This document shows positions 2,200 to 8,019 of a DNA stretch of 44,126 nucleotides, piece by piece. Both the position numbers and the translations under genes were made by a program. Position 1 is the stretch's first letter; each line of letters starts with the position of its first letter. The notes under the pieces are model-generated. The model worked only from the letters and a program-made list of their open reading frames with translations. It made no database searches and had not been told where the DNA came from. This stretch comes from a bacterium (GTDB lineage Bacteria > BMS3Abin14): positions 854,883 through 899,008 of the forward strand of contig CP070719.1 in the NCBI GenBank assembly GCA_020350725.1. The letters run 5' to 3'.

Positions 2200-3015
2200 C
2201 TAAAACCTCTCCGGCTTTATCGCCTCGATGTCGGCTGAGACGAAGTATTCCCATGCCTCGTCTGCGGTATCAGGGGCAAGGCTGCTGATGACCTCGCGGC
2301 TCTCCTCCTTGGTGATGATGCGTATATCGACGAATCCGGCATCCTTAAGTGTCTTTTCGGTATCCTCTGTAGTGGCGGCACCGCCGACGCACGCCGACAC
2401 CAGGGCAAGATCCTCCTGCATCCCTGCCGGAAGGGGCTTGGTGGAGACGATGTCCGAGATGGACAGCCTTCCTCCCGGCTTGAGGACACGATACGCCTCA
2501 CGGTAGACGGCAGGCTTGTCGGGGGAGAGGTTGATCACGCAGTTGGAGATAACAATGTCGGCAACTCCGTCGGCCACGGGCAGGTGCTCGATCTCGCCCA
2601 GGCGAAACTCCACATTCTCTCTCCCGGATTTCCGTTTATTCTCCCTGGCCAGGGAGATCATGTCCGGCGTCATGTCCACACCGATGACCTTTCCGGTATC
2701 GCCGACCTGTTCGGCGGCCAGGAAGCAGTCGAATCCGCCGCCGCTGCCCAGATCCACCACCGTCTCGCCTTCCTTAAGCGATGCCAGAGCGACCGGATTG
2801 CCGCACCCCAGGCCCAGATTGGATCCCTCGGGAACACTGGTCATGTCATCCGCCGAGTAACCCATGGAGGCCGAGGCCCTTTCCGGCGTGAAGCCCGATT
2901 CACCGCAGCACGAGGACAGGGGTTCCTGATAGCATCCCCGGGCCTCGTCCCGGGCGATCCTCCCGTAACTCTCGCGTACTCTTTCCCTGATTTTCTCTGT
3001 CCGCTCCGTTGTCAT
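2200..3015 (-). CDS. arsM: Arsenite S-adenosylmethionine methyltransferase ArsM
   Basis: This 271-residue cytoplasmic enzyme would methylate arsenite with S-adenosylmethionine to give methylated arsenicals. SAM motif I is DLGSGGGFD (residues 88-96). The arsenic-binding cysteines expected of ArsM are present: Cys36/Cys37 in SSCCG, Cys159 in SNCVINLSPDK and Cys209 in ACVGGA. The SNCVINLSPDK signature is diagnostic for ArsM against generic methyltransferases. The start at 3015 has an AAAGGAGAAAGG ribosome binding site. It is the last gene of the arsR-cysteine protein-arsM series and has its own ArsR-like operator at 3041-3056. A terminator hairpin separates it from the preceding gene, so it is probably transcribed as its own arsenic-induced unit. 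Identification is firm. Confidence 0.95.
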   Translation of the reverse strand: MTTERTEKIRERVRESYGRIARDEARGCYQEPLSSCCGESGFTPERASASMGYSADDMTSVPEGSNLGLGCGNPVALASLKEGETVVDLGSGGGFDCFLAAEQVGDTGKVIGVDMTPDMISLARENKRKSGRENVEFRLGEIEHLPVADGVADIVISNCVINLSPDKPAVYREAYRVLKPGGRLSISDIVSTKPLPAGMQEDLALVSACVGGAATTEDTEKTLKDAGFVDIRIITKEESREVISSLAPDTADEAWEYFVSADIEAIKPERF

Positions 3016-3040: not shown

Positions 3041-3056
3041 TTCGAAAAGTATCGAA
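3041..3056 (-). promoter_or_regulatory. Putative ArsR operator upstream of arsM
   Basis: This is the inverted repeat TTCGA-N6-TCGAA, one of three identically spaced copies in the ars region (others at 3486-3501 and 3853-3868). In minus-strand sense it is preceded by ATTATT and a run of seven T, the same arrangement as the copy before the cysteine-protein gene. It lies 26 bases upstream of the arsM start, where repressor binding would block transcription initiation. Confidence 0.65.
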
Positions 3057-3065
3057 ATAATAGCC

Positions 3066-3115
3066 GAAAAAAAGCTCCTGTGGGGCCGGAGGGGCGGTTC
3101 CTGCCCTCCGGCCCC
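3066..3115 (-). terminator. Terminator or attenuator between the cysteine-protein gene and arsM
   Basis: A perfect 12-bp GC stem (3082-3093 with 3104-3115) has a 10-nt loop. In minus-strand direction it is followed, after about eight bases, by a run of seven T (3067-3073). It lies between the stop of the small cysteine protein and the arsM operator. It would therefore end the upstream transcript and insulate arsM. Confidence 0.75.
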
Positions 3116-3122
3116 GGGTGGA

Positions 3123-3377
3123 TTACTTCTCTTCCGATTCTTCGGAAGGGGGGCAGCAGCCCATCTTCCGCATCATCTCGAGCATCTTCTCCGGGTTGAA
3201 TTCGGAGTCCTCGCCGCAGAAATTCCTCATCATGGCCGTGCAGTCGAATGTTCCGTTTTTCTGCCGGAACTGTTCCATCATCTCCGCCATCCTCTCGAAT
3301 CCACCGGCGGGCATCCTGAAATCAGCTCCTGGACAGCATCCCGAGAAATCCGATTTTCCCTCTTTCCTGTCAGTCAT
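3123..3377 (-). CDS. 84-residue cysteine-rich protein of the ars cluster
   Basis: This small soluble protein has no signal peptide or membrane segment. It carries two Cys-Cys pairs (SGCCPG near residue 14 and KMGCCPP near 74) and two single cysteines between them (FDCTAMM and NFCGED). The rest is Met-rich amphipathic helix (MAEMMEQF, MLEMMRKM). I do not recognise a named family. The cysteine pattern suggests binding of a thiophilic metal or metalloid. It sits between arsR and arsM on the same strand, with its own TTCGA-N6-TCGAA site at 3486-3501 and a strong GGAAAGGAGG ribosome binding site. A role in arsenite binding or delivery to ArsM is a reasonable inference. It could equally be a passive sequestration protein. 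Confidence 0.75.
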   Translation of the reverse strand: MTDRKEGKSDFSGCCPGADFRMPAGGFERMAEMMEQFRQKNGTFDCTAMMRNFCGEDSEFNPEKMLEMMRKMGCCPPSEESEEK

Positions 3378-3485
3378 GGGTTCATCCTCCTTTCCGTGGG
3401 CGTTCGATGCGCTTTACCTTCTTAGACGGCACCGGGGCTGAAAAGGATACAGGTTTCGCAACTCATTCCATTGAAACTTAGAAAA

Positions 3486-3501
3486 TTCGATAGCTTTCGA
3501 A
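3486..3501 (-). promoter_or_regulatory. Putative ArsR operator upstream of the cysteine-protein gene
   Basis: This is TTCGA-N6-TCGAA with the same arm sequence and spacing as the other two ars sites. In minus-strand sense it follows ATTATT and a run of seven T. It lies just after arsR and about 110 bases before the cysteine-protein start, so that gene would have its own repressed promoter and a leader of roughly 100 nt. Confidence 0.65.
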
Positions 3502-3524
3502 ATAATGGGGTAAAAAAACATCCC

Positions 3525-3860
3525 TCACTCCAGCGAGAAGAAAGCTCCCATCGTTTTTATGGTCTCGGGTTCGATCCAGCACTCGATCCGCTGTCCTCGG
3601 CGCTCCATCCTGATGAGGCCGGCCCGCCGCAGCTCCTTGATGTGATGCGAAATGGTGGAGGGAACGATGTCGAGGAATTTTCCCACGTCGCCGACGCAGG
3701 CGCATCCCTTTGTCTCTATCTCCTCCTCGAGGTCATCGGTGGATACGGGGATGCAGCACAGTGACAGGAGGCGCATGAAGATCCTCAGCCTGTTCGGGTT
3801 CGACAGGGCCTTGAACTTCTCTGCCAGCTCCAGGATCTGGTCATCTCGATAGTTCGACAT
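3525..3860 (-). CDS. arsR: ArsR/SmtB-family transcriptional repressor
   Basis: This 111-residue winged-helix repressor would release DNA when it binds arsenite or a related metalloid. The N-terminal KALSNPNRLRIFMRLL segment (residues 17-32) is the standard ArsR helix. The recognition helix follows at about 56-80, ending in STISHHIKELRRAGLI. The inducer site is likely the CxC pair Cys53/Cys55 at the start of the helix preceding the recognition helix, perhaps with Cys35/Cys36 or Cys94. An operator-like inverted repeat (3853-3868) overlaps its own start codon, implying autoregulation. Downstream lie the cysteine-protein gene and arsM, each with the same site. Family is firm; arsenic as inducer rests on the CxC motif and the linked arsM. 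Confidence 0.93.
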   Translation of the reverse strand: MSNYRDDQILELAEKFKALSNPNRLRIFMRLLSLCCIPVSTDDLEEEIETKGCACVGDVGKFLDIVPSTISHHIKELRRAGLIRMERRGQRIECWIEPETIKTMGAFFSLE

Positions 3861-3868
3861 ATTTCGAA
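3853..3868 (-). promoter_or_regulatory. Putative ArsR operator overlapping the arsR start
   Basis: This is the third TTCGA-N6-TCGAA copy. It is embedded in a longer AT-rich near-palindrome (GACATAT...ATATGTC) at 3856-3877. It overlaps the arsR start codon (3858-3860), so either the transcript is almost leaderless or repression acts by roadblock. Confidence 0.6.
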
Positions 3869-4157
3869 ATATATGTCATGGTCCCCGGTCTGTCAAGAGA
3901 AAAACGGTGGGGGACGGAAAATTGGATAGAGCAGGGCTCCCCGGTGACGACGGTTCGGGAGATCCCCCGCTTCCAGGCGAATAGAGGCCCTGCCTGGTAT
4001 ACTTCCAGTAGGAACGCTTTCTTGGCAGATGAGGAGGGGGAGTGGACATCCACGCACGCCCGGTCGGGGGGAGAGAGCACCAAGCGGGGCGGGGGCGGGT
4101 CGGAGCAGGCTGGAGTGGAAAGGGGGATGATCAAAACTCTTTCAGGGCAGGATAACC

Positions 4158-6867: not shown

Positions 6868-8019
6868 CTACCCTCCCAGTTCCAGCTCCACAATCCTCAC
6901 CCAGAATTCGACGCCGGGCCCTATGATATCGTCGTTGAAGTCGTAATCGGAACGGTGGCTCATGGTGTGGAACCCGTTGCCGATGAAGACGTAGCATCCA
7001 GGAACGTTTTCGAGGAAGTAGGAGAAATCCTCGGACGCCATGAGGGGAGGGACCTCGGTCTGGACCCTGCCTGGACCGGCCACGGCCCGTGCGGCCTCGG
7101 CCGCTATGGCGGCTTCCCTTTCGGTATTGACCGTGGGGGGATAGCCGGGCAGGTATTCGAAGGTGTGCTCGGCCCCGTGGGCGCCGCATACCCCTGCCAC
7201 CACCCTCTCCATGGCTCCCTTGATCTGTTCGCGAACCTCCGGTGTCTGCATCCTCGTGCACCCTCTCAGGACGGCCGCATCCGGGATGACGTTCCATGTG
7301 GTCCCCGATTGGAAAAGGGTCACGGAGATGACAGCGTGATCCAGAGCGCTGATCTCCCGGGAAACGATGGTCTGGAGGGCCGTGACCACCTCCGCCCCGA
7401 CAATGATGGGATCCGTTCCCGTGTGGGGAAGGGCGGCGTGGGTTCCAAGGCCCCGGATCACGATCTCGAAGTTATCCGTGGCGGCCATTACGGGTCCCGT
7501 TCTCAGGGCAAAGGCTCCGGCCTCCAGGCCCGACCTGTTGTGCATACCGTAGACGGCTTCGATGGGGAACCTGTCGAACAGTCCTTCCTCCACCAGCAGC
7601 CGGGCGCCCCCGCCACCCTCCTCCGCCGGCTGGAAGACGAATACCACAGTGCCGTCGAAGCGCCTTGTCTTGGCCAGATAGCGGGCCGCCCCGAGCAGCA
7701 TGGCCAGATGTCCGTCGTGCCCGCAGGCGTGCATCAACCCCTCCCGGACGGAGGCGTGATCCACCTCTCCCTTTTCCCTGATGGGCAGGGCGTCCATATC
7801 CGCCCTCAGGGCGATGGTCCTCTCCGTAGTGCCTGCCCTCAGGACACCGATCACCCCCGTCTTCGCCCAGCCGGTGTGGACCTCGACACCCATGTCATGG
7901 AGCCTGTCGGCGATGATCCGGGCGGTTCGCGTCTCCTCGAAGCCCAGCTCCGGATGCCGGTGGAGGTCATGTCGCAGGGCGATGAGTTCGGGCAGATAGG
8001 ATGAAATAGTCTTTTTCAT
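6868..8019 (-). CDS. M20-family amidohydrolase / metallopeptidase (HipO-like)
   Basis: This 383-residue cytoplasmic dizinc hydrolase belongs to the M20D group, which removes N-acyl groups from amino acids (hippurate hydrolase, IAA-amino acid hydrolase, N-acetyl-diaminopimelate deacetylase). It opens with LRHDLHRHPELGFEE. It then shows the metal-binding ADMDALP and HACGHDGHLAMLLGAA motifs, FQPAEEGGGGA with the catalytic Glu pair, and the C-terminal ASEDFSYFLENVPG signature. The dimerisation insert begins near residue 185. Length is normal and no key residue is missing. It lies downstream of the histidine kinase gene on the same strand, separated by about 100 bases. Substrate cannot be assigned. 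Confidence 0.93.
   Translation of the reverse strand: MKKTISSYLPELIALRHDLHRHPELGFEETRTARIIADRLHDMGVEVHTGWAKTGVIGVLRAGTTERTIALRADMDALPIREKGEVDHASVREGLMHACGHDGHLAMLLGAARYLAKTRRFDGTVVFVFQPAEEGGGGARLLVEEGLFDRFPIEAVYGMHNRSGLEAGAFALRTGPVMAATDNFEIVIRGLGTHAALPHTGTDPIIVGAEVVTALQTIVSREISALDHAVISVTLFQSGTTWNVIPDAAVLRGCTRMQTPEVREQIKGAMERVVAGVCGAHGAEHTFEYLPGYPPTVNTEREAAIAAEAARAVAGPGRVQTEVPPLMASEDFSYFLENVPGCYVFIGNGFHTMSHRSDYDFNDDIIGPGVEFWVRIVELELGG

Follow-up and report, generated by a model that had tools for sequence, protein, structure and literature searches.

Putative ArsR operators at three genes of a bacterial ars cluster, one of them spanning the arsR start codon

The ars cluster and three copies of a palindrome

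The window analysed here is a whole stretch of 44,126 nucleotides (44 kb), and its ars cluster comprises three genes that share one orientation on the minus strand inside 1.7 kb. The first is arsR (3525..3860, minus strand), which encodes a 111-amino acid ArsR/SmtB winged-helix repressor. Its membership of the ArsR/SmtB family and fold is borne out by NF033788 (62.5 bits, cut-off 55), by Pfam HTH_20 and HTH_5, both above cut-off, and by a structural model (mean pLDDT 75) that falls among the CzrA, SmtB and ArsR structures. The second gene (3123..3377, minus strand) is an open reading frame for an 84-amino acid Cys/Met-rich protein with no significant family in Pfam or NCBIfam. The third is arsM (2200..3015, minus strand), which encodes a 271-amino acid SAM-dependent arsenite methyltransferase that matches the curated sequence model NF008823 with 352 bits (cut-off 263). 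Elsewhere in the window, the minus strand at 127-666 encodes a protein of 179 residues that has a cluster of cysteines, CLRCGTCC, and no Pfam match at E 0.001, and the plus strand at 1790-2043 carries a gene, which we take to be cold-shock-like, with a strong terminator-like hairpin behind it (2015-2043). Repeat-like intergenic text is present at 780-1030 and 2085-2150 (GATTCGTGATTCG, TTCGACAGGCTC), and similar text precedes an ArsP-family gene at another locus of the genome (L092).

The genome, a single contig of 2,777,163 bp, has no ArsB match and no ACR3 match above cut-off, with one partial ACR3 match below it, and it has four ArsP-family permease matches. An arsenic response built on methylation and thiol-rich proteins is plausible.

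The sequence TTCGA-N6-TCGAA occurs as three exact copies in the window, where 0.07 are expected and where three or more were reached in 0 of 100 shuffles. Allowing up to one mismatch, for which 1.46 matches in all are expected, adds a single place at 7926. The three copies, all on the minus strand, are designated putative ArsR operators 1 (3853..3868), 2 (3486..3501, 5' of the small-protein gene) and 3 (3041..3056, 5' of arsM). An earlier note on this DNA had described three identical sites, one before each gene. The arms and their spacing are indeed the same in all three, but the 6-base spacers differ (plus strand: CATATT, TAGCTT and AAAGTA for operators 1, 2 and 3), and whereas operators 2 and 3 lie upstream of their genes, operator 1 overlaps the arsR ATG at 3858-3860 and reads TTCGA-AAT-ATG-TCGAA. 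The earlier note took the site to differ from the E. coli ArsR box.

The earlier note had also called for a genome search for further copies and held that a motif frequent across the genome would speak against a regulon. The motif is not frequent: the genome holds six exact places, three in the ars cluster and three elsewhere, versus one for the reversed control pattern. All three off-cluster copies lie inside open reading frames that resemble real genes (by their motifs, presumably RibF-like, CsoR-like and shikimate-kinase-like) and are likely coding. A search with TTCGANANNNNTCGAA at up to one mismatch gave 21 one-mismatch places, with the change in the arms or at position 7, besides the six exact ones. 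Seventeen of these 21 places (L031-L047) were considered as further regulon members and rejected, as all 17 overlap open reading frames of at least 70 amino acids, some of which may be spurious. The ArsP-family genes were also rejected as targets: there is no exact site at the four loci, and the near-matches at two of them, one with one mismatch about 0.8 kb upstream of the gene (L091) and one with two mismatches within repeat-like intergenic DNA (L092), were set aside. In the same-family genome G005 all three exact places fall within its ars cluster (control pattern count 1), as do both places in G018 (control 5) and the single place in G010 (control 1). The ars cluster holds one of two exact places in G014 (control 4), one of six in G007 (control 2) and two of nine in G016 (control 8). 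Off the ars clusters of these six other genomes, the pattern and its reversed control occur at similar frequencies.

The palindrome at the start of arsR

Relatives of ArsR were collected from species genomes (24 loci; one search pattern included the N-terminus), from the phylum of the window (12 genomes, one family; three ArsR loci beyond the window's own) and from the phylum of locus L011 (395 genomes; matches at 15 places in 13 genomes). The clade is spread over Desulfobacterota-type, Dehalococcoidia and Gammaproteobacteria MAGs and one further lineage, and no plasmid relatives of ArsR were found at E values up to 1e-15. The comparison at a fixed offset, arm(5)-NNN-ATG-arm(5), covered 39 loci including the window. 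It left out L021, where the arsR start is cut at a contig end, L030, a match of only 40 residues, and L060 and L061, which duplicate L011 and L016. In L027 and L028 the ATG was taken 15 nt ahead of the tblastn start.

The exact site is found at the arsR start with the same offset in 28 of the 39 loci, several of which are closely related, so that this and the following counts overstate independence. The palindrome of arsR covers the -10/start region, and its arms are symmetric at 5/5 positions in 30 of the 39 loci, at 4/5 in six and at 3/5 in three. Complementary changes in the two arms occur at four positions in three loci (L066, L067 and L073) and unmatched changes at 12 positions in nine loci. 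This covariation of the arms gives modest support to an operator.

The right arm of operator 1 encodes residues S2 and N3 of ArsR. Among the first 26 genes codon 2 is Ser in all 26 and TCG in 25, whereas TCG is used in 7/26 at each of two invariant serines and in 2/26 at one more column, where 25 genes have Ser; over the full set of 39 loci, 32 have TCG as codon 2. The right arm is held as DNA, because TCG at codon 2 is far above its level in the other Ser columns. Additionally, in 23 loci the spacer between the -35 and -10 elements carries almost no information and the operator arms are near the maximum. The TCG bias, the uninformative promoter spacer and the conserved arms together argue for an operator that is kept at the DNA level and reads into arsR. 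These results bear on whether the repeated motif could be a product of chance or of coding constraint. One arm does lie within coding sequence and the motif is a simple palindrome, but with three copies in the window against 0.07 expected and none of 100 shuffles reaching three, TCG as the second codon of 25 of 26 genes, and conserved noncoding copies behind arsR at 21 of 36 loci, this explanation is scarcely credible.

A TTGACA/TATATT promoter lies directly 5' of operator 1. Its -35 element (TTGACA, 3891..3896, minus strand) and -10 element (TATATT, 3868..3873, minus strand) are separated by a 17 bp spacer, and one base of the -10 element is common with operator 1. The -35 element matches at five or more of six positions in 36 of the 39 arsR loci (against a mean of 1.8 and a maximum of 6 when the upstream sequence is shuffled), and the -10 element at four or more of six in 37 (shuffled: mean 15.8, largest 22). 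Letters resembling a Shine-Dalgarno (SD) sequence were found 5' of arsR in 2/39 loci, which is chance level (shuffled 2.1), and ahead of an in-frame ATG in 23 of 24 arsM open reading frames, the best ATG being chosen. Because a start about seven bases past the -10 element falls on the ATG, and because SD-like letters are only at chance level, the arsR mRNA is predicted to be leaderless. Operator 1 spans the arsR start codon and would also cover the site where transcription begins, so that the repressor, once bound, would silence its own leaderless message.

Secondary sites, T runs and the genes behind them

Among the 36 loci that have at least 400 nt past arsR, one or more secondary sites (up to one mismatch) are present in 21 and none in 15, and in several of the 15 arsM directly follows arsR. 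Two secondary sites occur in three of the 36: the window, L011 and the same-family locus L053. The counterpart of operator 2 is exact in L053 and has one mismatch in L011. Of the 22 loci that have a secondary site, L021 counted, 18 have arsM 3' of the last one, as judged by sequence resemblance. The other genes in this position encode a C_GCAxxG_C_C protein, recognised by Pfam in L064 and by resemblance in L065, or an FMN reductase (L074), and in L007 the gene lies beyond the contig end.

Each secondary site of the window is preceded by a T7 run, at 3512..3518 for operator 2 and at 3067..3073 for operator 3 (both minus strand), and both runs end 10 nt upstream of the operator. A shared T7-N5-ATTATT context had been proposed for these two copies. 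The T run keeps a constant distance to the operator in relatives: in 23 of the 25 secondary sites, five or more consecutive T end within 1 nt of one position, and in 20 they end at the identical base; in a wider interval a T run is present in 22 of 25, versus a mean of 0.96 of 25 after shuffling the 45 nt upstream. The ATTATT letters are not conserved in relatives, and that part of the proposal falls away.

A G+C-rich hairpin lies between the small-protein gene and arsM (3082..3115, minus strand; folding z -4.85 for 3057-3140). The suggestion of a strong terminator before arsM is left weak: the hairpin itself is strong, but its 12-bp stem ends 8 nt short of the T run and is unlisted by a terminator scan. 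A terminator at this hairpin is possible. The scan listed a weak terminator-like stem (3539-3522) before operator 2, and three such stems in the region versus 2.3 expected. A stem of at least 6 bp abuts the T run in 3 of 22 secondary sites, operator 2 of the window among them (mean folding z -0.47), in a test that covered loops of 3-9 and 35 nt, that misses hairpins like the one before arsM and that left out L019, L024 and L062. One strong hairpin was found, in L053 (z -4.30). With abutting stems at 3/22 sites only, the T runs were rejected as terminators in general, individual sites being possible, and the T run is taken as part of the secondary promoters or operators, where it may stand in for a -35 element, act as an upstream element or bend the DNA. 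The secondary promoters are without a standard -35 element, and their best -10-like match is at offset +3, inside the operator, with a positive score in 19 of 25, which is suggestive only. A third half-site, TCNA, is found at +19 in 12 of 25 secondary sites.

The three genes are co-directional within 1.7 kb, and they could form a single operon transcribed from the arsR promoter, with the inner sites serving as a roadblock or for fine-tuning; L014, L027 and L029, which have arsM close after arsR without a second site, fit such an arrangement. The T run at fixed spacing on the inner sites (23/25), the strong hairpin that separates the small-protein gene from arsM, and the three-site layout seen again in L053 and L011 (3/36 loci with the window) argue against it, and a single operon is improbable. 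The earlier proposal that the genes are separately repressed is strengthened, since a rare, cluster-specific and conserved site marks arsR, the small-protein gene and arsM as separate units. At the latter two genes the operator, 10 bp downstream of the T run, would lie over the promoter start region.

Relatives of the small Cys/Met-rich protein adjoin arsR/arsM of this kind in L053, L007 and L011, and no operator was found ahead of the small-protein-like gene of L007. A search of 16 genomes found the protein in three (the L007 locus, the L011 locus and a weak match in G022, E 0.003), a search of 395 genomes in one, the L011 genome, and a search of the 12 genomes of the window's phylum in three, including G003. 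The idea that these relatives are confined to the vicinity of this arsR is contradicted by the stray copy in G003, a genome that is 73% complete and has no match to the window ArsR at 1e-12. The neighbourhood of the G003 copy has no operator at up to one mismatch, and its neighbours are an ECF-sigma-like gene and a small membrane-protein gene. A gene that we presume to be ECF-sigma-like and a small membrane protein of one recurrent kind lie near arsR in L055 (3812-4969) and L013 (8801-9696) and, in L101 (2677-3990), beside the stray small Cys protein. It is a guess that the small protein binds or hands over arsenic.

C_GCAxxG_C_C-like genes stand behind arsR in L064, L065, L069 and L071 (those of L064 and L069 were tested with Pfam), a place that in most relatives is taken by arsM. 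In L062, on the minus strand 3' of arsR, ArsM is continuous with a domain that resembles this family in one frame of 462 residues, which stops at a TGA after a cysteine. This fusion suggests that the C_GCAxxG_C_C redox family works with ArsM. In L068 and L073, the sequence downstream of arsR encodes a membrane-anchored protein that bears a CC-rich stretch at its N-terminus and then a membrane protein that we take to be CcdA-like, and a similar pair is present in L022 (Dehalococcoidia).

The cysteines of ArsR and the proposed regulon

Across the 39 loci C35 is present in 38, C36 in 38, C94 in 37 and C55 in 32. C35, C36 and C94 occur together in 36 loci, and at least one of them is missing in three. 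C55 had seemed near-invariant in the first 26 loci (25/26), but it is missing in 7 of the 39, and the predicted sensing set was narrowed to C35, C36 and C94. In the ArsR model, of which residues 38-51 are unreliable, C35 closes helix 2, C55 is placed at the strand that precedes helix 3, and C94 belongs to the second strand of the wing. Because the protein belongs to the ArsR family and has arsM as a neighbour, these conserved cysteines may be taken to sense arsenic. One ArsR relative, L069 (G338:C11:114017-114322, minus strand), has an in-frame TGA at codon 41 with the rest of the frame open, near a cysteine position of relatives such as L067 and L073. This TGA possibly stands for selenocysteine.

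Compared by description, the C35/C36/C94/C55 set matches no As(III) site given in the accessible text of PMC11868830. The type 1 site described there for R773 ArsR, Cys32-Cys34-Cys37, has no equivalent in the window protein, whose box reads CACVGDVG and in which only C55 aligns with the SmtB metal-box cysteine. The type 2 site (AfArsR, Cys95-Cys96-Cys102) is also absent, as the C-terminal third holds C94 only and no CC pair, and so is the type 3 site (CgArsR, Cys15-Cys16 with Cys55 of the other subunit), as the protein is without Cys before residue 35. In the ArArsR type, Cys41 is part of the N-terminal loop and Cys80 and Cys82 of the beta sheet; by way of SmtB, C55 probably corresponds to Cys41, but it is absent in 7/39 loci, and C94 is without a CxC pair.

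This mismatch leads to the question of whether another regulator binds the sites or ArsR senses a signal other than arsenic. Binding of ArsR to the sites is predicted, the cysteines fit no As(III) site in the accessible text of PMC11868830, and the site also precedes the C_GCAxxG_C_C gene of L064 and the FMN-reductase gene of L074. However, the exact site lies in the start codon of this very arsR clade (28/39), the three cysteines are present in 36/39 and arsM follows the last site in 18/22, which makes either variant quite unlikely. A thiophilic signal other than arsenic is possible for ArsR.

Control of ars genes by ArsR is already known, and three systems were compared in the accessible text of the sources cited. 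In Pseudomonas putida, ArsR1 and ArsR2 repress their own promoters (Pars1 and Pars2) and are released by arsenite; the footprinted operator overlaps the -10 element and the Pars1 operator has a TTCGAA half-site, but the operator letters and layout are otherwise different, ribosome-binding sites are marked and a start codon inside the operator is not mentioned in that text (PMC7994332). TtSmtB of Thermus thermophilus resembles the window system in that one ArsR/SmtB repressor acts at several separate promoters, including that of TtarsM, and in that the TtsmtB transcript begins 3 nt from the start codon. In contrast to the window, its targets are scattered, the inverted repeat at TtarsM is GAAC-N14-CTTG, the TTC0354 promoter contains TTGCTCAA, and the accessible text states a consensus palindrome only for the TTC0354 promoter and not for the TtsmtB start (PMC5658604, PMC8649762). 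ArArsR of Arsenicibacter rosenii likewise controls arsM (arsRMC operon) and has a cysteine equivalent to R773 Cys32 along with beta-sheet cysteines, but its operon has a single promoter with the operator over the -35 element, and its As site, C41/C80/C82, includes a CxC pair that lies in the sheet (accessible text of PMC11868830), whereas in the window protein helix 2 is followed by a CC pair and the sheet has one Cys. In the accessible text of these sources and of PMC7438021, PMC5343134, PMC8509827 and PMC13236881, all from the open PMC library, we found neither this operator described nor any arsR start codon lying within an operator. The operator, the start-codon overlap and the cysteine set (C35, C36, C94) look new.

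The favoured reading, which we consider likely on the sequence evidence, is that an autoregulated thiol-sensing ArsR separately represses arsR, the small-protein gene and arsM via the three operators. An ArsR dimer would bind TTCGA-N6-TCGAA at three separate promoters and would come off when trivalent arsenic binds C35, C36 and C94, with C55 perhaps taking part. Three transcripts would then be induced in parallel, so that the cell makes more sensor, more methylating enzyme and more of the small thiol-rich protein. The sites, their conservation, their specificity within this genome and the promoter-like anatomy are observed, whereas we infer that ArsR binds, that arsenic is the inducer, that the start is leaderless and what the T run does. 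An arsenic control system with this unusual layout is very probably real, because the same design recurs in distant bacteria. Going further, these proteins could constitute a separate ArsR class, with an operator fused to the start codon, a T-run promoter type, a new cysteine triad and a methylation/thiol response; this extension is tentative, and we would put it a little short of an even chance. In such a class the operator, the transcription start and the translation start would be one 16-bp element of a leaderless repressor gene, and a second, T-run-marked promoter type would drive arsM and thiol-rich proteins. The triad would consist of a CC after helix 2 and one wing Cys, and methylation and thiol proteins would stand in place of arsenite pumps.

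To our knowledge, little is known about the control of arsM in uncultured bacteria, and the cluster would offer a simple arsenic regulon in uncultured bacteria that bear arsM. If binding is confirmed, the 16-bp element would be a compact biosensor part. The fixed grammar of operator and T run may be used to find more members, for example redox proteins fused to ArsM, and arsR itself would be a clean case of an operator that fixes how the coding sequence of its own regulator begins.
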